In this document: positions 4,761 to 15,226 of the stretch, in pieces
How the letters are laid out: each line of letters begins with the position of its first letter
Position numbering within the stretch: position 1 is the first letter of the stretch
Origin: Lyngbya sp. CCAP 1446/10
GTDB lineage: Bacteria; Cyanobacteriota; Cyanobacteriia; Cyanobacteriales; Microcoleaceae
Direction: 5' to 3'
Length of the DNA stretch: 64,000 bases
Assembly (NCBI RefSeq): GCF_026130175.1
Contig: NZ_JAIGNI010000020.1
Span: 1-64,000 of the forward strand
The notes under the pieces: model-generated
Database searches by the model: none
Told to the model about the DNA's origin: nothing
The model's input: only the letters and a program-made list of their open reading frames with translations
Program-made: the position numbers and the translations under genes

Positions 4761-5348
4761 CTATACTTCCCGTTTTTTTCGCCCCAACATTTGAGCTGCT
4801 AATATCCCGCCTGCAAAGCCAAAGAAATGTGCTTGCCAGGAAACTCCAGGCTGCGAGGGCAAAACTCCCCAAATTAAACTGCCGTAGAAGAAACCGACAA
4901 TTAAAGATATCATAATAGACGTAAAGCTGCGTTCAAAATAGCCCCGCAGTAGCAAAAATCCGAAGTAACCAAAGATTAATCCGCTGGCACCAATGTGTAC
5001 GGAATTGGGCGCGCCTGTCAGCCAAACTCCCAATCCGCTGATGAGTACAGTAACGGCACTTACGATAAAAAAGTCGCTAGTTTCTCGCAGCATGATTAAC
5101 CAACCAAATGTCAAAAAAGGAAGGGTATTGGCGGCTAAGTGAGCAAAACTGCCGTGCAGAAAAGGCATGAAGAGGATGCCTTCGAGTCCGTCGATGCTGC
5201 GGGGGCGGACTCCGTAGGAATTCAGCGCGCCTCTAAACACGAATACATCGAGAATCTCGATCGCCCACAGGAGGGAGACGAAGCCGCCGAGAATGGCGGC
5301 GTGGCTTTGCAATTCGCGGGTAATAGATTTGGTTTCTGGGTTGCTCAT
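4761..5348 (-). CDS. Rhomboid-family intramembrane serine protease
   Basis: A 195-residue membrane protein with about six hydrophobic helices. The HGSFAHLAAN segment (residues 65-74), the nucleophile motif GASG (Ser122) and a late-helix His (WQAH, His174) form the expected rhomboid Ser-His dyad and oxyanion Asn. It should cleave transmembrane segments of other membrane proteins. The substrate is unknown. It converges on the histidine kinase, with only the repeat and a short pyrimidine tract between them. Confidence 0.88.
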   Translation of the reverse strand: MSNPETKSITRELQSHAAILGGFVSLLWAIEILDVFVFRGALNSYGVRPRSIDGLEGILFMPFLHGSFAHLAANTLPFLTFGWLIMLRETSDFFIVSAVTVLISGLGVWLTGAPNSVHIGASGLIFGYFGFLLLRGYFERSFTSIMISLIVGFFYGSLIWGVLPSQPGVSWQAHFFGFAGGILAAQMLGRKKREV

Positions 5349-5845: not shown

Positions 5846-6223
5846 ATGAACGTATTTGAGCAAAAATTACCCCAGAGAATTCTGCCAATTTGGGTATGGC
5901 ATGGCAAAGAAGAAATTACTGTTACTGTCGCTACAATTTCTCAGCCTTACAGTAAAAAGCCGCGGTTTGATTTATTACATCCGCTGAAAGAGTGGATCGA
6001 GAACACGGAAATTAAGAGTCAAAAATTGGCTCGGTTGTTGTGTAAATATATTCCATCGCAGTGTCCGTTTGAGCGGGAAGTCAAGTTTGGCGATCGCACT
6101 TTATTTTCCATTCCGCCGTTGTGTAAGTTAAATCCGCTTTACGAGCAAGTAGTTGGGATTCGCTTTCGGGCTTTGTGTTATTTGGCTGACGACTGCGGCG
6201 TGGATGTAACTCCCTATTGTTAA
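5846..6223 (+). CDS. Mo-dependent nitrogenase C-terminal-like protein (Mo-nitro_C)
   Basis: 125 residues. The stretch from DLLHPLKEWIENTEIKSQKLA to LCYLADDCGVDVTPYC holds the family pattern: CKYIPSQCPFER, FSIPPLCKLNPLYEQV and GIRFRALCYLADDCG, with conserved cysteines. The name comes from sequence likeness to a nitrogenase gene tail, not from proven nitrogenase activity. The family is common in cyanobacteria, including non-fixers. AGAGGAGAAGAG just before the ATG at 5846 is a strong ribosome binding site. A terminator follows at 6260-6290. Confidence 0.82.
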   Translation: MNVFEQKLPQRILPIWVWHGKEEITVTVATISQPYSKKPRFDLLHPLKEWIENTEIKSQKLARLLCKYIPSQCPFEREVKFGDRTLFSIPPLCKLNPLYEQVVGIRFRALCYLADDCGVDVTPYC

Positions 6224-6646: not shown

Positions 6647-6803
6647 GGCGGTATTCCTAAATGTCATAATCTACAAATAACCGCATACCAGGGGCAGCAT
6701 CCAGAGCAAAACAGTGCAGATTGAACTGCACTAATCTGCACTATGATTTTTCCCTAGCTATTCACTAAACTATGAATAGTCGCAATCTCTCCACTTACCA
6801 CCG

Positions 6804-9800
6804 ATGAGCAAAACTCCCAATTCCAGCACCATAGGGCTTACTCTAGAAGGATTAGAGAAAGTTCGCGAAAGAATGGCCCAATTGCCAAAGCCTGAAAAAC
6901 CAGATAAGAAAGGTTGGACTCAAGAGGATTTGGCAAAAAAGTCAGGGGTGAGTATTGACACGGTTAAGCGGTTTCTTGATAAAAAGCGAATTAGGAGAGA
7001 CTTTATTACTTGGATCGCCCAAGCTTTAAATTTAGAAATAACCGAAATTGTCGATCGCCACGAATGGAGCCCGCCCTCACCGCCAGCAACCCAAATCGAC
7101 TGGCGCGAAACCTGCCGCGCCGCAGCCCAAGCCAAGCGACAAGCGGCCAACACTTTTTTTGCTAACGACTTAGCGCGAAAAATCGACCTCAACGAGATTC
7201 ACGTCCCCTTGGGATTAATCGAACGCCAGCAAAAACCCCAGCGCCGCGATGATTTCTCCCCTCAAACAGGTTCCCAAGCTTATCAGGAAGCCGAAAAATT
7301 GATTCCCCTCAGTTACGACGAATTTTGCGAAAAAGTCCTCACAAACAGCGATAGCCCTAAAAGCAAGGGGAAACGCCTTGCAGTCATCGGCGAACCGGGT
7401 GCGGGAAAAACTACTCAATTGTTGAAAATTTGCGATCGCATATTGGCGGAAACTGAATATTTGCCCGTATGGATATCCTTAGCAGAGGTGAAAAAACCTT
7501 TGTGCAAATATTTAATCGAAGATTGGCTGCGAATAGCGGCGGGAAAATTGGATGCTGCACCTGCGGAATGGGTGAAAGAATTTAATGAATTACTGAGTGA
7601 AGGAAAAATCTGGTTGCTGTTGGACGGCGCGGATGAAATGGGAATAGCCGATTCCCTGGGAACTCTATCGCCACAGTTGAGAGAACGGGTATTTGATAAA
7701 GTACGAATAGTAATCAGTTGTCGCCTGAATATTTGGGAGGCTACGGGGAATGCCCTGTCTGATTTTGATACTTATAAAATGCTCGACTTCAGCTATGGAG
7801 ACGGCGATAATTGCGATCAAGTGAAATTGTTTATCGATCAATGGTTTACCCCCCTTAATCCCCCCTTGGAAAGGGGGGAAACTGGCCCAATTCCTAATCC
7901 CTTACCAAGGGTGGAAACTACCTCAATTCCTACTCCCCCCCTTACTAAGGGGGGGCTGGGGGGGGTTCTACGCGCCGCCTTAGACGAACCGGGAAAAGAG
8001 CGAATCAAAGATTTAGCACGCAATCCCCTGCGGTTATTCCTGCTGTGTTTAACTTGGGAATTCGGACAGCAAGAATTACCCGATACTAAAGCCGAACTTT
8101 ATGAGGTATTTGTCACAGCGCTTTATGATTTCAAGAAACAAGCTTTCCCGACAACAGCAGCACAGAGAATAGACTTAAATGCTGCGTTGGGAAGGTTTGC
8201 ACTGACAGCAATTGAAGCTGGATATAAATCGATATTGCCCGATTGGTTTGTGAGCCAAAATCTGGCGCAACCGCATCCTGAGTTATTTGAAAAAGCAATT
8301 GAATTAGGTTGGCTGAATCGAGTGGGAGATGATGCCCAAAACCCGCTGAAATCTGTTTATGCTTTCTATCATCCCACGTTTCAGGAATATTTTGCAGCGT
8401 GCGAGATTGAGGATTGGCACTTTTTCTTGAATCATGTGCCGCAGAATCCGCAGCAGGGGATTTATCGGATTTTTGAGCGGCAGTGGAAAGAGGTGATGTT
8501 GTTGTGGATGGGGCGAAAGGATGTGGATAGGGAGGAGAAGGAAGCGTTTATTCAGGCGTTGGTGGAGTTTCAGGATGGAATTGAAGATGAGTTTTATTGG
8601 TATCGAGCTTATTTTCTAGCTGCTGTCTTAATTGATGAGTTTAAGGATTGTTCTTTGGGTGATGCGATCGTTGCACAAATTGTCCAGTGGGGATTTGGAT
8701 ATTTTAATATTGAAAAGCAGGAGTGGCAGACATTTTTATATCCAATTGCCGAAGCATCAAAAGCAATATTGCCAGAGAGTGATCGTACAATAGCGATCGC
8801 AGCTTTAACTAAATTAATCCGCACATCTGAGGCTGAAGATATCCGGTGGCAGGCAGCCTATAGCTTAGAAGAAATAGGCAAAGGCAACCCAGATGCGATC
8901 GTCGCTTTAATTGATTTAATCCACACCTCTGAAAATGAATATATCCAGTTGCAGGCAGCAAATAGCTTATGGAAAATAGACGAAGGCAACCCAGATGCTA
9001 TCGCCTATTTAACTGAGTTAATCCGCACTTCTGAAAATGTAGATATCCGGCGGCAGGCAGCAGAATATTTAGGGAAAATAGATAAAAGGAATTCAGATGC
9101 TATCGCCACTTTAACTGAGTTAATCCGCACCTTTAAAAATGAGAATATCCGGTGGGAAGCAGCAGATACATTAGTTAGAATAGACCAAAAAAATTCCGAT
9201 GCGGTCGCCTATTTTACTGAATTTATTCGCACTTCTGAAAATGGATTACTCCGGTGTCTAGCAGTAGAAAACTTAGGGGAAATAGGTAAAGAACACCCAG
9301 ATATGATCGCCACTTTAACTCAATTATTCCGCACACCTGAAAATGAATTCATCTTGTGGCAGGCAGCACATAGCTTAGGAAAACTAGACAAAAGTAACCC
9401 AGATGCGAGCGTCGCTTTAACTCAATTAAGCTTCAAATCAGATGAGGAATTTATCCAAGCTCTAGCAGCAGGAAACTTATGGAAAATAGGAAAAGGCAAC
9501 CCAGATATAATCGCCACTTTAACTGAGTTAATCCGCACCTCTGGGAATCTAAGTATCCGGTGGCAGGCAGCAAATAGCTTAGGAAAAATAGACAAAGGCA
9601 ACCCAGATGCGATCGCCACTTTAACTGAGTTAATCCGTACCTCTGGGAATCTAAATATCCGGAGACAGGCAGCCCATAGCTTAGGAAAAATAGACGAAGG
9701 CAACCCAGATGCGATCGCAGCTTTAACTGAGTTAATCCGCACCTCTGGGAATAAATATATCTTCGAGCAGACAGTAGATAGTTTAGTGGAAATAAGCAAA

Positions 9801-10535
9801 AGCAACCCAGATGCGATAGCCATTTTAACTGAGTTAATCTGTACCTCTGAAAAGGAAGATATCCTATCGCAAGCAGCACATACTTTCAATAAATTTTTGA
9901 CAGAAACTCAGCAAATGACAGGGGTTGTCACTGCCTTAAAAAATTGCCTATCCGATGAGACTTACGAAAATGACTTGGACAGATACAACAATTCCTACAA
10001 AGTCATCTGGCACTGTGCCCAAAATCTCCCTTACCCCACCTTCTATGACGCATGGCACCATCCACCCACCACACCCCATTCTGAAGTTCCCGATTGGCAA
10101 ACTTTCCTCCAAGACATTGCCAGAGAAATCAATAATCAAGCCGAATTATCCAATCAAATCCAACTTTTGTGCATCGACAGCAAAAACTTCATCAACCCCG
10201 ACAACCCCGCCGCCAAGATTTACACCCAAATGCTGAAACAAGGCTGTCCCAAAAGTGAGGATGCCACACCGAAAACAATGGCAGATTTACAAACTTATTG
10301 GGATTTGCTGCTGATGGATCGCGAGAAATCTTTCATCTTATTATTCTACAACTCGCGGGGGGAAGAGGCGACAGGATTTAGCGAGACATTTCTCAATGAT
10401 TTAAGCAAGTTTGACGGCAACATTGCTATTGTTAGCGAGAATGACGCGGATTCGCTGACAGCTTTTTCACCAAGTCAATCTGATTTGATTGGAGCGATTG
10501 TGCGGTGGATTTGCCAAGTTGTATGCGAAAGTTGA
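6804..10535 (+). CDS. XRE-NACHT-HEAT repeat protein (STAND NTPase)
   Basis: 1243 residues. The N-terminus (about 35-85) is an XRE-type helix-turn-helix (WTQEDLAKKSGVSIDTVKRF). A linker leads to a NACHT NTPase with Walker A GEPGAGKTTQ (from about residue 196) and Walker B LLLDGADEMG (from about 271), followed by the LRLFLLCLTW segment and winged-helix-like region. Eleven tandem 34-residue HEAT-like units span about residues 660-1030. The C-terminus (about 1110-1243) is an unassigned alpha/beta region. Family knowledge: bacterial NACHT proteins include anti-phage sensors that oligomerise on ligand binding. Defence is an inference here. Residues about 349-388 are a Pro/Gly-rich insert encoded by a repeat (7849-7967). 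The neighbours downstream are toxin-antitoxin genes. Confidence 0.9.
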   Translation: MSKTPNSSTIGLTLEGLEKVRERMAQLPKPEKPDKKGWTQEDLAKKSGVSIDTVKRFLDKKRIRRDFITWIAQALNLEITEIVDRHEWSPPSPPATQIDWRETCRAAAQAKRQAANTFFANDLARKIDLNEIHVPLGLIERQQKPQRRDDFSPQTGSQAYQEAEKLIPLSYDEFCEKVLTNSDSPKSKGKRLAVIGEPGAGKTTQLLKICDRILAETEYLPVWISLAEVKKPLCKYLIEDWLRIAAGKLDAAPAEWVKEFNELLSEGKIWLLLDGADEMGIADSLGTLSPQLRERVFDKVRIVISCRLNIWEATGNALSDFDTYKMLDFSYGDGDNCDQVKLFIDQWFTPLNPPLERGETGPIPNPLPRVETTSIPTPPLTKGGLGGVLRAALDEPGKERIKDLARNPLRLFLLCLTWEFGQQELPDTKAELYEVFVTALYDFKKQAFPTTAAQRIDLNAALGRFALTAIEAGYKSILPDWFVSQNLAQPHPELFEKAIELGWLNRVGDDAQNPLKSVYAFYHPTFQEYFAACEIEDWHFFLNHVPQNPQQGIYRIFERQWKEVMLLWMGRKDVDREEKEAFIQALVEFQDGIEDEFYWYRAYFLAAVLIDEFKDCSLGDAIVAQIVQWGFGYFNIEKQEWQTFLYPIAEASKAILPESDRTIAIAALTKLIRTSEAEDIRWQAAYSLEEIGKGNPDAIVALIDLIHTSENEYIQLQAANSLWKIDEGNPDAIAYLTELIRTSENVDIRRQAAEYLGKIDKRNSDAIATLTELIRTFKNENIRWEAADTLVRIDQKNSDAVAYFTEFIRTSENGLLRCLAVENLGEIGKEHPDMIATLTQLFRTPENEFILWQAAHSLGKLDKSNPDASVALTQLSFKSDEEFIQALAAGNLWKIGKGNPDIIATLTELIRTSGNLSIRWQAANSLGKIDKGNPDAIATLTELIRTSGNLNIRRQAAHSLGKIDEGNPDAIAALTELIRTSGNKYIFEQTVDSLVEISKSNPDAIAILTELICTSEKEDILSQAAHTFNKFLTETQQMTGVVTALKNCLSDETYENDLDRYNNSYKVIWHCAQNLPYPTFYDAWHHPPTTPHSEVPDWQTFLQDIAREINNQAELSNQIQLLCIDSKNFINPDNPAAKIYTQMLKQGCPKSEDATPKTMADLQTYWDLLLMDREKSFILLFYNSRGEEATGFSETFLNDLSKFDGNIAIVSENDADSLTAFSPSQSDLIGAIVRWICQVVCES
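7849..7967. repeat. G/C-tract palindromic repeat carried in frame inside the NACHT gene
   Basis: CCCCCCTTAATCCCCCCTTGG followed by AAGGGGGGA, then a second half with CCCCCCTTACTAAGGGGGGG, forms nested inverted repeats. This class of C6TT..AAG6 element is a known dispersed cyanobacterial repeat type. The insert keeps the reading frame and adds about 40 residues (TPLNPPLERGETGPIPN...) between the Walker B region and the following helix. Confidence 0.75.
8781..9891 (+). repeat. Eleven 102-bp HEAT-coding tandem repeats
   Basis: The unit is 34 codons and runs NPDAIATLTELIRTSGN..IRWQAANSLGKIDKG. Units are spaced exactly 102 bases; for example AACCCAGATGCGATCGC starts at 9600 and 9702. Units 8-10 are nearly identical in DNA, while earlier units have diverged, so the 3' part seems recently expanded or converted. 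Confidence 0.9.
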
Positions 10536-10910: not shown

Positions 10911-11415
10911 TTATTCAAGGACTTTGATGATAGTGGCGATCGGGATAAAAAGTGAAAGTTCATCATCCTCTAGCGGTATGAAACCGTATTTCAAATAAAA
11001 CTGTTTCGCTTGCTGATTTTTAGCATCGACTGTCACCGCAAATATTCCCACTTCTGACGAGAATCGAACTGCTTTGCGAAAAGACTCCATCAGTAGCTCC
11101 TCCTACTCCTCTCCCTTGCATGGAACGATCTACAGCAAGTTTGCCAAGACGCATCCCTGGTACTGGATAGCGTGGCAATCCTCTCCGATAATTTTCGGGT
11201 AGAGACTCCCGTTTAATTTCAGCCATACTGACAGAATAATAGCCTGCTACATCTGGGCTGCCAACTTCAGGAATTGCCACAAAAGTTTTAGAGATGCCTC
11301 TTTTATCGTTTTGTTTGGCATATTTTTTAATGTACTCATTTAACTCTGGTACACCGCAGTCGAAAGCTTCTCGTTTGATTCGGTTATCCTCAATGGAGCA
11401 AAAAATTAATTCCAT
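10911..11415 (-). pseudogene. TacT-like GNAT toxin, frameshifted
   Basis: The first part reads MELIFCSIEDNRIKREAFDCG...YYSVSMAEIKRESLP...LGKLAVDRSMQGRGVG, a GNAT acetyltransferase of the type that acetylates aminoacyl-tRNA (TacT/AtaT class). At about 11097-11105 (AGTAGGAGGAGC on the coding strand) the frame breaks. One base further on, a clean continuation ELLMESFRKAVRFSSEVG...AKQFYLKYGFIPLEDDE runs to a stop at 10911. The span is 505 bases, one more than 168 codons, so a single extra base explains it. The acetyl-CoA motif (RGVG) is split from the C-terminal fold, so activity is doubtful unless this is a sequencing error. The antitoxin gene is 3 bases upstream. Confidence 0.88.
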
Positions 11416-11418
11416 TGT

Positions 11419-11700
11419 TTACCACTTTCCATACTTTTCTTGATGCTCTTTAATGGCTGCTTTTAGTGCTTCGTTGGGCTCCGGTGGGTTTTCGATCGCA
11501 GATGCGAAGTTTTCCCAGTCGCGCTCGCTTAACACGATCTGCTCTACTTGAGGAGTTTCTTTGGCTGCTTTCAGTGCTATGTCTAGCAAATATTCGTTGA
11601 GGCTCAAGCACTTCGCAGTGGCGGCTTTTTCGAGAATTTCTTTATCTGCTTGGCTGAGGGTGAACTCTATTTTTGTTTGGGTATCGGTTGGTGTTGACAT
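11419..11700 (-). CDS. DUF1778 (TacA-like) antitoxin
   Basis: 93 residues. The N-terminal half (TQTKIEFTLSQADKEILEKAA...LSLNEYLLDIALKAA) is a ribbon-helix-helix DNA-binding domain as in DUF1778 antitoxins. The tail (VLSERDWENFASAIENPPEPNEALKAAIKEH) matches the toxin-wrapping segment of the family. It sits 3 bases upstream of the GNAT toxin gene in the classic antitoxin-first order. It would bind the toxin and repress the operon. Since the toxin is frameshifted, the antitoxin may now stand alone. Confidence 0.88.
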   Translation of the reverse strand: MSTPTDTQTKIEFTLSQADKEILEKAATAKCLSLNEYLLDIALKAAKETPQVEQIVLSERDWENFASAIENPPEPNEALKAAIKEHQEKYGKW

Positions 11701-11885: not shown

Positions 11886-12503
11886 ATGACAACCACTTTG
11901 CCAACAACCGACCAACATTACTTCACAGAAGAGCAATATTTAGCACTGGAAGAAACAGCAGAGGACAAAAGTGAATATCTCGACGGGGAAATTATTCCTA
12001 TGACAGGCGGCTCTACCAATCACAATCGGCTCGCAGGAAACGTTTACATTGCTTTAAATTTGGCTCTTCCAGAACAAGAGTATGATGTCTTCATCGGTGA
12101 CGTGCGTCTGTGGGTTCCAAAAGTGCGACTTTATACTTATCCCGACGTAATGGTAATTTTGGGAAAACCGGAGTATCACAACAATCGCACAGACATGATT
12201 ACTAACCCTCAAGTGATTGTGGAAGTTTTATCAAAGTCTACTAAAAATTACGATCGAGGTGACAAGTTTAAATTATACAAAACTATTCCTAGTTTTCGAG
12301 AATACATTCTGATTGACCAAACACAAATTAATGTTGAGCAGTATTCTAAAACCGAGAATAAAAAATGGTTGTATTCCGAGTATGATGAGGAAGATACCGC
12401 ATTAGTGTTTAATTCCTTCGAGGTTGAAATTCCTCTATCGGCTATTTATAAGAAAGTCAATTTTGAGGAAGTTGAGAAAGACAATAATCAGAATGAGGTG
12501 TGA
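11886..12503 (+). CDS. Uma2 family (DUF820) nuclease-like protein
   Basis: 205 residues, starting with FTEEQYLALEETAEDKSEYLDGEIIPMTGG. The later segments YPDVMVI, NPQVIVEVLSKSTKNYDRGDKFKLY and REYILIDQ give the PD-(D/E)xK-type arrangement (E..D..ExL..K) of the Uma2 family. The family is expanded in cyanobacteria and is often annotated as putative restriction-like endonuclease, with no established function. A GGGAG motif lies before the ATG. The gene ends shortly before another copy of the TTCCCTAC repeat. Confidence 0.88.
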   Translation: MTTTLPTTDQHYFTEEQYLALEETAEDKSEYLDGEIIPMTGGSTNHNRLAGNVYIALNLALPEQEYDVFIGDVRLWVPKVRLYTYPDVMVILGKPEYHNNRTDMITNPQVIVEVLSKSTKNYDRGDKFKLYKTIPSFREYILIDQTQINVEQYSKTENKKWLYSEYDEEDTALVFNSFEVEIPLSAIYKKVNFEEVEKDNNQNEV

Positions 12504-12533: not shown

Positions 12534-12593
12534 ATGCACTTGCCTCCTGTTAAACTGAATCTAGCGGTCGTCTTAAGCAAGGAAAAAATAGCC

Positions 12594-12827
12594 GTGATAC
12601 CTCTCAAAGAAAAACTCGTTGAAAAACTGAAAAATTTCTCTGAAATTGAACTGCAAGAAATCCTCAACTTTGCTGACTTCCTGTTATGGCAGCGGAAACA
12701 ACAGGAAATAGCTTCGCCGCTCGATGAAACTGGCAACAGCCAACCAGCAAATATGGATGAAGAGTGCGAGGTTCATTATGTTGGTGGAGTCTTAGTCGTC
12801 AAAGCATCATCAATAAAAACTGAATAA
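12594..12827 (+). CDS. Small antitoxin-like protein (DUF2281-like)
   Basis: About 77 residues from a GTG at 12594 (VIPLKEKLVEKLKNFSEIELQEILNFADFLLW). The N-terminal helix pair resembles DUF2281-type antitoxins, and the tail contains VHYVGGVLVVKA. AAGGA lies about 9 bases before the GTG. An upstream ATG at 12534 gives 20 extra residues that derive from sequence next to a dispersed repeat, so I prefer the GTG. No toxin gene is directly attached; the next gene begins 65 bp later. Confidence 0.55.
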   Translation: MIPLKEKLVEKLKNFSEIELQEILNFADFLLWQRKQQEIASPLDETGNSQPANMDEECEVHYVGGVLVVKASSIKTE

Positions 12828-12892: not shown

Positions 12893-13153
12893 ATGACTCA
12901 AAATAATTTACTCTCTCGCATCTCAATCGACTCGAATATCTGCTTTGGCAAACCCTGTATTCGCGGCCATCGCATCTGGGTTTCTCTGATTCTTGACTTT
13001 CTCGCTAGCGGCATGACTTTAGAAGAATTGCTTGAGGAATATCCGGGAATTGAACGAGAAGACGTTTTGGCTTGTATTGCTTATGGGGCTGAGTTGGCAA
13101 GAGATTATTATGTCGAAATTCCTCTGGGTGAAAAAAAGGTAGTTTTAAAGTGA
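12893..13153 (+). CDS. DUF433 antitoxin
   Basis: 86 residues: ISIDSNICFGKPCIRGHRIWVSLILDFLASGMTLEELLEEYPGIEREDVLACIAYGAELA. The DxxICFGKPCIRGxRI motif and the short winged HTH are diagnostic of DUF433. The gene overlaps the downstream DUF5615 gene by 4 bases (GTGA), the usual layout of this toxin-antitoxin type. It probably neutralises the partner and represses the operon. Confidence 0.9.
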   Translation: MTQNNLLSRISIDSNICFGKPCIRGHRIWVSLILDFLASGMTLEELLEEYPGIEREDVLACIAYGAELARDYYVEIPLGEKKVVLK

Positions 13154-13533
13154 AGTTAAAACTTGATGAAAATTTGGGCAGCATCCGCGTTGTTTCGATG
13201 TTACGTTTGGCTGGCCATGATGTTGCGACTGTACGGGAACAAAATTTGAGTTCCACACCGGATGAATTATTAATTGATATATGTCGGAGGGAAGATAGAT
13301 GTTTTGTGACTTTGGATAGGGGGTTTGGCAATCGCCTCCGCTACAATCCTTCTGATTATTCTGGGATTGTGTTACTGCGTCTGCCTTCTCAATCGAAACC
13401 GCAAGATTTGCAAGCGGCAGTAGAAATATTAATTCGCGGATTGGATGCCGCAGAAGTTGCGGGTAAATTGTGGATTATCCGAGGGGAACAGCTTTTGGAA
13501 TATCAAGCAATATCGGAAGATGAATCTGACTAA
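13150..13533 (+). CDS. DUF5615 PIN-like toxin
   Basis: 127 residues from a GTG. The pattern KLKLDENLGSIRVVSMLRLAGHDVATVREQ, then CRREDRCFVTLDRGFGN and YSGIVLLRLPSQ, is the DUF5615 (Mut7-C-like, PIN fold) family. The acidic residues Asp6-Glu7, the LDRGFG Asp and others form the presumed metal site. It is predicted to be an RNase toxin paired with the overlapping DUF433 antitoxin. No break is seen. Confidence 0.87.
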   Translation: MKLKLDENLGSIRVVSMLRLAGHDVATVREQNLSSTPDELLIDICRREDRCFVTLDRGFGNRLRYNPSDYSGIVLLRLPSQSKPQDLQAAVEILIRGLDAAEVAGKLWIIRGEQLLEYQAISEDESD

Positions 13534-13702: not shown

Positions 13703-15226
13703 CTACGCGCCGACAGCTTCCTTGGCCGCGTACAACACCTCAGCATTAATTAAAGCAATACCGCGCTCGCGAGCAAACTTCTCAGTATTTCGCTTCACCT
13801 TACCCCGGACAAAACCAGGGATTTTATTCAACTCAGCTTGTCCATCCTTCGTCCAATTCATATCAGAATCAGCCGAAATACCCTTAGTAATCACTTCCTT
13901 AGTATCGTGGCCGCCGAAGATTTCTAGCAAGTGGTCTTCCATGCCCAAAGTAAAGGAATTGTAGACCAAATCTACGCACTGATTTGTGCCTTCATAACCC
14001 AAAAATGGCTTGTAGCCGATCGGGAAATTTTGAACGTGAATCGGCGCAGCAATCACACCGCACGGAATATCAAGCCTTTTACCGACGTGGCGTTCCATTT
14101 GCGTGCCGAAAATTGCCGAAGGTTCCGCTTTCGCGATCGCATCCCCGATCGCCCCGTGATCCTCCGTCACCAGCACTTCATCACAATACCCTTTTACCTC
14201 TTCCCGGAACCAATCAGCATCGTGTTTGCAGTAGGTTCCTGCCCATACAACGTGGATTCCCATCTCGCGAGCCAAAATCTTCGTCATCGCCGCAGCGTGC
14301 GTATTATCGCCAAATACGACCGCTTTTTTGCCCGTTAAGTTTTGGCAGTCGATCGACCTTGAGAACCAAGCAGCCTGAGACACAAACCGCGTTTGTTGGT
14401 CAATAAACTCTTCATAATTAACATCCGCACCTTGAGCATTCAACACTTCCTGAATCTTGCGAATACAGCGCGCAGTTTCTACCACACCCATCGGCGTAAT
14501 ATCCACCATCGGAGTGCCAAATTCTTTTTGCAAATACTTCCCAGTCATCATCCCCAATTCCCGATAAGGAACCAAGTTAAACCAAGCGCGCGGCAGTCTT
14601 TTTAAGTTATGAACCGAAGCACCTTCGGGAATAACTTCGTTAACTTCAATTCCCAAATCTGCCATCAAACGCTTCAACTCGGTGCAGTCGTGCTGGTTGT
14701 GAAAACCCAGCGTAGACATACCGATAATATTCACCGATGGTTTTTCACTTTTACTTTCCAAATCGCCTTTTTTGCGAGCTTTGTTAATGTAAAATTGCAC
14801 GATTTGATCTAAAGTGCGATCGGCAGCTTCGAGTTCGTTAACCCGATAATGGTTGACATCGGCTAGCAACACGTCGCCTTTGGCATCCAATTGAGCTCGC
14901 TCCACGAAGTTTTCCAAGTCTTCTTGCAAAATGCTGGAGGTGCAAGTCGGAGTCAACACGATTAAATCTGGGCTTTCTTCTCTGTCTTTGCGGGTGATAT
15001 TGTCCACCACCCGTTCCTGCGAGCCCCGCGCCAGTACGTGTCTGTCAACGACGCTGGTAGTTACAGGCGTGAAATCCCGTTCCCTCTCTAGCATGGAGCG
15101 CATGACGTTAAAATAGTCATCTCCAATCGGTGCGTGCATGATGGCGTGGACGTTTTTGAAGGAAGTCGCAACGCGCAAAGTGCCGATGTGGGCTGGGCCT
15201 GCGTACATCCAATAAGCCAATTTCAT
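13703..15226 (-). CDS. chlB: Light-independent protochlorophyllide reductase subunit B
   Basis: 507 residues, the usual ChlB length. It starts [20 protein letters not shown] and contains [36 protein letters not shown] and a C-terminal region ending AKEAVGA. With ChlN it makes the NB protein of the dark-operative enzyme that reduces protochlorophyllide to chlorophyllide, using electrons from ChlL. It is related to nitrogenase NifK. ChlL and ChlN are not in this window. The gene stands alone on the minus strand. Confidence 0.97.

Follow-up and report, generated by a model that had tools for sequence, protein, structure and literature searches.

A mosaic NACHT–HEAT gene with a position-specifically diversified repeat array at one chromosomal site in Lyngbya sp. 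CCAP 1446/10 and its relatives

We analysed the first 64,000 nucleotides of contig NZ_JAIGNI010000020.1 of Lyngbya sp. CCAP 1446/10 (hereafter, the window). The gene under study is a single reading frame of 1243 aa in the list of open reading frames (ORFs) and lies between conserved flanks, with the following features along the locus.

4761–5348, minus strand: presumably a rhomboid-like gene; left flank, conserved
5846–6223, plus strand: Mo-nitro_C gene (Pfam); left flank, conserved
6716–6739, no strand: palindrome GCAGATT-N10-AATCTGC, a candidate operator about 65–88 bp ahead of the start codon
6804–10535, plus strand: XRE-NACHT-HEAT-(NCC-H)-NCAB1 gene (ORF, Pfam domains)
6804–7082, plus strand: XRE-type HTH head, exchangeable, aa 1–93 (Pfam, allele comparison, BLAST clustering)
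7083–7853, plus strand: NACHT core, homogenised, aa 94–350, with Walker A at 7389–7415 (Pfam, allele comparison)
7854–7976, plus strand: in-frame linker, about aa 351–391 (interspersed palindromes)
7977–8603, plus strand: rear part of the NACHT region, aa 392–600 (allele comparison)
8793–9914, plus strand: HEAT array of eleven 34-aa units, the sensor (TRF, unit map, position test)
9972–10058, plus strand: NCC-H domain (Pfam)
10110–10514, plus strand: NCAB1 domain (Pfam)
11020–11415, minus strand: 131-aa ORF with no Pfam match, resembling residues 1–105 of the 168-aa TacA partners (GNAT-like, we assume) in relatives
11419–11700, minus strand: TacA-type antitoxin (Pfam)
11886–12503, plus strand: Uma2-family putative nuclease (Pfam; PADLOC candidate PDC-S03)
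12534–12827, plus strand: DUF2281-like gene (22.9 bits, under the cut-off of 26.5)
12893–13533, plus strand: DUF433 and DUF5615 (PIN-like) pair, a toxin–antitoxin-like cassette (Pfam)
13703–15226, minus strand: presumably a chlB-like gene; right flank, conserved

Domain architecture and the N-terminal head

Pfam analysis of the full protein identified HTH_26 at aa 35–84 (23.8 bits against a cut-off of 22), NACHT at aa 192–333 (33.2 bits against 26.7), HEAT_2 (178 bits), NCC-H at aa 1057–1085 (60.8 bits) and NCAB1 at aa 1103–1237 (159.8 bits); with the isolated head as query, HTH_26 rose to 27.7 bits and HTH_3 was likewise above its cut-off. The motifs GEPGAGKTT and LLLDGADEM, which we take to be Walker A and Walker B, are both intact, and the Pfam domains and repeat unit map together give a tripartite layout of head, NACHT and sensor. 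A first-pass annotation, made from the letters alone, had described an XRE-type head, a NACHT switch and eleven near-identical HEAT units. The head and the switch are borne out by the domain scores and intact motifs, and the eleven units (aa 664–1037) by their spacing of exactly 34 aa, although NCC-H, NCAB1 and the palindrome linker had been missed and the likeness of the units had been overstated: they share on average 55% amino acid identity (10 units) and 71% DNA identity (best pair, 90%), and TRF reported a 102-bp period with 10.7 copies and a 73% match. The linker of about 40 aa is made of an interspersed palindrome with 34 exact genomic occurrences, whereas a reversed control pattern has 0. 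Between anchor motifs it measures 40 aa in the allele of the window gene (G000), 67 aa in G004 and 82 aa in G010, and it forms the contig end in G014, G023 and G040 (G and L or C numbers denote alleles, loci and related proteins).

The XRE head is carried by alleles G000, G010 and G023, and an unrelated head takes its place in G004, G014, G018 and G040. Pfam matches to the alternative head, followed up to an E value of 10, were weak and mutually inconsistent, and an AlphaFold2 model from three sequences was all-helical with a pLDDT of 72 and a pTM of 0.40, values for which we judged it unfit for a fold search. For L125, a motif had hinted at a caspase-like head, which Pfam did not confirm. The pairing of an XRE head with NACHT had been called uncommon; in a non-random sample of related proteins, 9 of 42 heads clustered with that of the window by BLAST. 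A search of the strain's own genome with the XRE head (E up to 0.001) returned one match, the gene itself, which argues against homotypic adaptor signalling.

A DNA-binding head would also suit a transcription regulator of the STAND class that serves ordinary physiology, for which MalT and GutR are models; the HEAT region would sense a signal from the cell or its environment, and the head would switch promoters, with no role in conflict. The HTH head expected of such a regulator is found by profile, above the Pfam cut-offs, and DNA binding is predicted from it. XRE-like heads also occur in the genus on a different kind of P-loop NTPase (the one tested by Pfam gave HTH_26 at 20.3 bits, under the cut-off of 22), and G023 retains the upstream palindrome of G000. 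However, the palindrome is missing before the XRE allele G010, as it is before the four alternative-head alleles, and its conservation is weak evidence because the entire upstream stretch co-varies with the head. As the same core bears unrelated heads, is patchily distributed, includes broken alleles and is joined to a sensor diversified mainly on its surface (see below), we consider this explanation unlikely.

One chromosomal site with mosaic alleles

The NACHT core is present in 7 of 29 genus genomes and occupies the same chromosomal site in all seven, each with at least one flank on the gene's contig (left in G000, G004, G014, G018, G023 and G040; right in G000, G004, G010 and G018; second flank on a separate contig in G010, G014, G023 and G040). 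Four of the seven core alleles are from MAGs, and the alleles compared belong to different species, not to one population. One further genome retains a 72-bp relic of the gene, and six genomes with both flanks on one contig have no trace of it, which agrees with the accessory character first proposed. Fixed synteny, named in the first-pass annotation as a sign of a housekeeping gene, does apply to the site, but not to what it holds: presence is patchy, alleles are mosaic and two of seven are broken (an in-frame stop in G010 and a deletion in G018). The frame is open in G000 and G004. Each of two unrelated heads is found with each of two widely differing sensor regions—XRE with tandem (G000), alternative with tandem (G004) and XRE with type B (G010), each on a single contig, and alternative with type B (G014 and G040), joined by synteny across a contig break; the combination could not be classified in G018 and G023.

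The NACHT core is homogeneous across alleles (dS of 0.036–0.139, 21 pairs) while the flanking chlB is more diverged (0.228–0.597, 21 pairs). The corresponding values were 0.016–0.105 for NCAB1 (10 pairs) and 0.229–0.642 for the histidine kinase (15 pairs). Some neighbouring genes are close as well: the rhomboid flank has a dS of 0.07–0.12 among G010, G023 and G040, the right-hand kinase and KTSC have 0.034 and 0.104 between G000 and G014, and a small ORF adjoining the gene has 0.12–0.26 in five comparisons.

The toxin–antitoxin neighbours from which an accessory island had been argued are present (TacA, DUF433 and DUF5615/PIN-like) but do not track the gene, as they are found at the site in strains without it; the DUF2281-like gene is multicopy there in some relatives. 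Relatives show toxin–antitoxin cassettes interleaved with copies of the gene's 3′ end. Extra copies in the locus were counted for the 3′ end, middle and 5′ end of NCAB1 genes in 6, 1 and 0 of 42 cases and of other genes in 13, 8 and 9 of 294, the NCAB1 3′ figure being biased because part of the loci had been chosen for carrying NCAB1 fragments. The downstream piece stops short of the C-terminal end in L133, L134 and L136.

A suggested check for other defence genes nearby was answered in part. With regard to phage sensing, PADLOC offered only a HEAT-region match to OloA and, weakly, one to mad8. Across 80 ORFs from nine loci at the site and the window (78 of 129 site ORFs and two more window ORFs; families covered, 25/80 and 25/79), it gave, among the families covered, PDC-S candidates, PD-T4-6 (taken for generic kinase matches) and mad6, but no established defence neighbour. 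A separate scan covered 74 ORFs between tail copies (19/19 families). None of 50,697 phage records matched the gene, and the C-terminal domain had no match on viral contigs in a search that reaches close relatives only; matches on 32 plasmid records were all below 60% identity, the 20 of 32 listed being cyanobacterial. A plasmid-borne homologue in Picosynechococcus sp. PCC 7002 (NC_010474.1) has 33% identity.

Diversified positions of the HEAT array

Variation within the 34-aa unit is focused on positions 15, 16, 19, 20, 23 and 27. These six positions, fixed in advance from the design of the alphaRep library, were more variable than the rest in the window array (p = 0.0003) and, with p < 0.05, in each of the 13 arrays, although the arrays are related to each other and not independent. 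Ratios of pN/pS, which are simple Nei–Gojobori counts among repeats that gene conversion can bias, exceeded 1 at the six positions in 10 of 13 arrays (a modest 1.31 in the window array) and were at most 0.75 at the remaining positions in all 13. Two arrays of low identity gave 1.03 (L183) and 0.97 (L182), and stricter array selection (5, 4 and 3 units) gave a mixed outcome in the position test. Arrays of 31-aa units in NACHT–HEAT proteins behaved similarly at the six positions (pN/pS of 1.29–5.14 in 5/5; p < 0.01 in 4/5), with other positions also above 1 in two of five (1.23 and 1.38). L175 is a NACHT protein by Pfam and the other proteins with 31-aa arrays bear a P-loop motif; these arrays are therefore no independent control, and the arrays examined included no HEAT array of high identity from outside the STAND proteins. 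Part of the agreement with alphaRep is to be expected, because the randomised positions of that library copied natural side-chain frequencies, according to the part of its description used here (PMC3754942).

The array also differs strongly between alleles. G000 and G004 are separated by a dS of 0.37 and a dN of 0.28 in the array, against a dS near 0.10 in the domains on either side; of the 11 units in the window, only 3 are matched best by the G004 unit of the same index, and mean DNA identity of units is 0.71 inside G000, 0.78 inside G004 and 0.73 between the two. Single unit pairs reach 98–99% DNA identity in G004 and C150. A sequence search of solved structures returned three matches, all alphaRep-type designed binders. 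In a single-sequence model of aa 600–1243, ten-residue means of pLDDT were 68–89 at fragment residues 61–400 and below 50 from about residue 440; with this model, the 50 matches listed by Foldseek were generic ARM/HEAT solenoids whose TM-scores stayed under 0.5, and they gave no functional clue. The counts suggest that the HEAT sensing surface varies most where a binding surface would be expected.

Such diversity could be neutral, with arrays that expand, contract and decay, a core that is merely young through recent transfer between species, and no selection for recognition. Tandem repeats mutate readily, the ratio in the window is moderate, and the broken alleles and the relic fit decay; however, G000 and G004 keep their frames, and variation concentrates on six pre-fixed positions in 13 of 13 arrays while the remainder of the unit has a pN/pS of at most 0.75, and we regard neutrality as very unlikely.

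Relation to known systems and proposed function

Bacterial NLR-related (bNACHT) antiphage proteins were reportedly described by Kibby et al. in 2023. In the sections of PMC12169576 drawn on here, such proteins have a central NACHT, an N-terminal head and a C-terminal sensing region in a tripartite STAND design; the window protein, with its NACHT domain, intact motifs and the same layout, resembles them. Those sections name SNaCT (clade 14) and NCH1 (clade 6) as C-terminal domains, where the window gene has NCC-H and NCAB1, and a nuclease as head, where the window gene has an XRE HTH and a putative defence role. At E values up to 0.01, Pfam lists NCC-H and NCAB1 and neither NCH1 nor SNaCT, the domains of clades with experimentally demonstrated antiphage activity; it may lack models for these two.

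The fungal HNWD, ANK and TPR NLRs, as portrayed in the portions of PMC4986451 and PMC12222747 consulted, likewise have a repeat sensor with few diversified binding-face positions, combinatorial heads and allelic polymorphism; the window gene differs in being bacterial, in using HEAT repeats and in exchanging alleles across species at one locus. Binding-face diversification is found here by simple counting. The fungal definition of high internal repeat conservation in the same portions is above 85% identity over 100 aa, compared with 55% in the window and 0.77–0.78 on average between units of the best relatives' arrays. Fungal HNWD genes act in heterokaryon incompatibility (PMC4986451, PMC12222747 and PMC12881547, in the parts used), and the polymorphic repeat sensor, exchangeable heads and single-site patchiness match that pattern. 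A receptor for allorecognition or kin discrimination, sensing polymorphic proteins of other strains and not phages, is nevertheless quite unlikely in our view, given that the alleles compared come from different species.

Other systems share parts of the design, on the excerpts of the papers concerned. In multicellular bacteria, NACHT/STAND targets of diversity-generating retroelements (DGRs) also join a NACHT switch to a domain that resembles an antigen sensor and is diversified, but their variation comes from a reverse transcriptase acting on a C-type lectin fold (PMC10907252), in place of putative repeat turnover and domain exchange. The variable positions of artificial alphaRep binders are spaced identically (0, 1, 4, 5, 8 and 12), but in designed 31-aa units (PMC3754942), as opposed to natural 34-aa units joined to NACHT. 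The strain's own paralogue C104 (EAD4-NACHT-HEAT-NCC-H-NCAB1) links the family to EAD conflict systems (PMC7159879); in contrast to adaptors that share a head with a separate effector, the window head is XRE and its own-genome search returns the gene alone. Our literature search, whose coverage excludes most subscription papers, found no comparable locus described.

On the evidence of its sequence and relatives, the gene probably encodes an NLR-like STAND receptor for conflict with phage, mobile DNA or non-self, in which the sensor recombines and the output head can be exchanged. The HEAT solenoid would bind a ligand through its diversified helix face, the protein may then oligomerise in an ATP-dependent manner, as the NACHT family suggests, and the clustered N-terminal heads would produce the output. 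With an XRE HTH as head, DNA binding is the likeliest output of the window allele. Since an unrelated helical head occurs in alleles and EAD4 or others in paralogues, the head slot may be an exchangeable output module. The locus would change by recombination, with the NACHT core spreading between species, heads and sensor regions being reassorted and repeat units turning over. The sensor–switch–head design proposed at the outset is supported, and is strengthened by the varied putative binding face and head exchange.

More tentatively, filamentous cyanobacteria may possess, at fixed sites, NLR-like genes with natural alphaRep-type arrays in which repeat recombination creates the diversity, their heads, NACHT core and sensors being reassorted between species for combinatorial recognition free of retroelements, and the 3′ ends in sister loci might serve as homologous landing sites for toxin–antitoxin cassettes. 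The parallels suggest a bacterial counterpart of the rapidly evolving recognition receptors found in fungi. If so, bacteria would own an equivalent of fungal repeat-variable immune receptors, built on a scaffold (HEAT, alphaRep-like) from which binders for selected proteins are already known to be obtainable; naturally occurring alleles would offer ready swaps (the same switch with another head or sensor) for probing sensing and output in bacterial NLRs, and the arrays indicate the residues likely to set specificity.

Domain architecture and predicted output

The gene at window 6804–10535 on the forward strand is a single open reading frame of 1,243 amino acids, in which the following domains scored over the Pfam cut-off:

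aa 35–84, XRE-type helix-turn-helix
aa 192–333, NACHT
between NACHT and NCC-H, HEAT repeats
aa 1057–1085, NCC-H
aa 1103–1237, NCAB1

Pfam confirmed the XRE, NACHT and HEAT parts named in the first-pass annotation, which had overlooked NCC-H and NCAB1 (both NACHT-specific C-terminal domains). The HEAT array (aa 664–1037) holds 11 units of exactly 34 amino acids each; these had been described as near-identical but are less similar than that, with mean identities of 71% for DNA (best pair, 90%) and 55% for protein (ten units). A single-sequence structure model (ten-residue pLDDT means of 68–89 in most units and 57–71 at the end) predicts a pair of helices in each unit; in the first unit, the second helix covers positions 15–28. 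An in-frame linker of approximately 40 amino acids (window 7854–7976), built of a palindrome, separates the NACHT core (window 7083–7853) from its rear. The palindrome occurs at 34 exact places in the same genome (reversed control pattern, 0), two of which fall in a paralogous NACHT gene on contig C150 (G000:C150:4398–4482). This interspersed element is in frame in both NACHT genes, and linker length differs among alleles.

The heads of 42 related proteins from fetched loci clustered into 10 long heads (without a Pfam name for the one of 10 tried), 10 of an EAD4-paralogue type (EAD4 confirmed for the paralogue C104), 9 XRE heads, 6 alternative heads and 7 singletons. Within the genus, XRE-like heads are found on a P-loop NTPase of another kind as well. 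The alternative head is likewise carried by a further large P-loop protein. Adaptor signalling through like-with-like pairing of heads is unlikely, as no second XRE-head protein was found in the gene's own genome. DNA binding is the simplest predicted output of the XRE head. A palindrome at window 6716–6739 is kept in genome G023 (94% identity over that stretch) and is absent upstream of the third XRE allele, in G010; it is a weak candidate for an operator.

Mosaic alleles at one site

The NACHT core was present in 7 of 29 genomes of the genus (E up to 1e-80), and all seven carriers share one site, with one of the two flanks on a separate contig in G010, G014, G023 and G040. The site is bordered as follows:

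left flank: histidine kinase, rhomboid-like gene, Mo-nitro_C, small open reading frame
right flank: chlB-like gene

No trace of the gene was found in six further genomes with both flanks on a single contig (G042, G012, G020, G013, G019 and G011), and the absence count rests on such intact sites, the flanks being rearranged or on different contigs in the remaining genomes. The core is reduced in G008 to a 72-bp relic (93% identity), the G018 allele has lost everything between window 7924 and 10507, and the G010 allele is interrupted by an in-frame stop. The toxin–antitoxin neighbours noted at first pass do share the interval, as toxin–antitoxin-like Uma2, DUF2281, DUF433–DUF5615 and TacA cassettes whose order varies between strains, but they are also found there in strains that lack the gene. 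Beside the TacA gene, a 131-aa open reading frame (window 11020–11415) matches its relatives over the first 105 amino acids only, the partners in L090 and L133 having 168 amino acids; it is probably a broken toxin next to a whole antitoxin. The G008 site (L083:2459–14001 and L084:1–8219) holds, with the relic, a polysaccharide-type cluster of glycosyltransferases and a sugar dehydrogenase. The same interval in G042 contains an actin-like reading frame (L085:3251–4417), unexpected in a cyanobacterium and possibly a contaminant or a transferred gene; one of 80 scanned frames matches Pfam Actin (E = 8e-147) and was assigned to this position by reading its sequence.

The alleles combine different parts. 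The XRE head is carried by G000 (the genome under study), G010 and G023, and an unrelated head by G004, G014, G018 and G040, with the junction to the core at window 7081–7083. The tandem 34-aa array is present in G000 and G004. G010, G014 and G040 share a degenerate region of another kind (type B), whose HEAT_2 match of 27.5 bits falls slightly short of the 27.7 cut-off and which is followed by the same NCC-H and NCAB1 domains; G018 and G023 were not classable by sensor. Two heads and two sensors are so distributed that all four combinations exist, three of them on single contigs; for the fourth (G014 and G040), synteny bridges a contig break within the linker repeat.

Synonymous divergence (Nei–Gojobori) was 0.036–0.139 for the core in all 21 allele pairs and 0.016–0.105 for NCAB1 (10 pairs), and 0.228–0.597 for chlB (21 pairs) and 0.229–0.642 for the histidine kinase (15 pairs). 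The flanks are not uniformly old: dS is 0.071–0.701 for the rhomboid gene (21 pairs; low among G010, G023 and G040), 0.12–0.26 for the small reading frame adjoining the gene (five comparisons), and 0.034 and 0.104 for the right-hand kinase and KTSC between G000 and G014. Values were 0.19–0.26 for XRE heads (3 pairs), 0.017–0.326 for alternative heads (6 pairs) and 0.019–0.047 for type B sensors (3 pairs). By these distances, the core has been shared among species later than most of the sequence around it, through either exchange at this one site or a recent transfer. The gene is real, intact and NLR-like, and lies at a mosaic site.

Diversification of the HEAT sensor

Between G000 and G004, the array has a dS of 0.37 and a dN of 0.28, against a dS near 0.10 and a dN of 0.03–0.06 in both bordering domains, and in only 3 of 11 units does the best match have the same index. 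Variable positions were examined with reference to alphaRep, an artificial HEAT-like binder library that, according to part of PMC3754942, randomizes positions 18, 19, 22, 23, 26 and 30. These six were chosen beforehand from that paper and correspond to unit positions 15, 16, 19, 20, 23 and 27, a register set by spacing and sequence alignment. In 13 arrays, each with at least 6 perfectly spaced units, they varied more than the rest in every case (permutation P < 0.05; window, P = 0.0003), the variable columns of three arrays being already known before this wider test; agreement in position is of limited independence, as the library imitates natural variability (same part of PMC3754942). At these positions pN exceeded overall pS in 10 of the 13 arrays (window, 1.31; range, 0.90–2.33) and pN/pS was ≤0.75 elsewhere in the unit, as simple counts that ignore gene conversion, from arrays related to each other; no high-identity HEAT array from non-STAND proteins was found to serve as a control. 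A second NACHT-type group with 31-aa units (NACHT confirmed for one protein) gave ratios of 1.29–5.14 in 5 of 5 arrays (P < 0.01 in 4), the other positions likewise exceeding 1 in 2 of 5. Within this group, L175, L176 and L177 have 16–24 strict units of 64–78% amino acid identity, with pN/pS of 1.65–5.14 at the alphaRep positions.

Tail copies in sister loci and known parallels

In sister loci, the 3′ end of NACHT–HEAT–NCAB1 genes is repeated downstream, on the same strand, in one to several copies. Most of these extend to the C-terminal end of the NCAB1 domain, and toxin–antitoxin genes lie in between; no such copies were found for the window gene. Match lists gave serial copies to the domain end in 7 of 41 NCAB1-bearing genomes (phylum sample of 292) and 6 of 28 in the genus, frequencies that are not generalizable because the loci were picked for NCAB1 fragments. 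Pfam matches among the 74 reading frames between copies (17 loci) include PIN (11), ParE (5), DUF433 (3), YafQ (3), YoeB (2), DUF5615 (2), Peptidase_C39 (2) and transposase domains (1 each), families that may overlap on one frame. Two related loci, L123 (4038–7489) and L124 (4704–9062), differ over this stretch by a single unit of toxin–antitoxin and tail copy. Alternation of tail copies and cassettes is seen in L124:5199–9071, L123:4515–7498, L125, L127, L137, L064, L065, L128 and L129.

The gene, flagged at first pass as a possible phage sensor, is most likely a conflict receptor. In fungal NLRs, the repeat sensors have variable positions under positive selection on their concave face (passages of PMC4986451) and repeats evolve in concert (passages of PMC12222747, which also cite highly repetitive WD40 proteins in bacteria). 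Bacterial NACHT proteins protect against phage (part of PMC12169576), and retroelements diversify NACHT systems in multicellular bacteria (part of PMC10907252). No description of such a locus was found among the papers listed by our literature searches. The window locus joins these themes of fungal NLRs, bacterial NACHT proteins and NACHT diversification, by other means.
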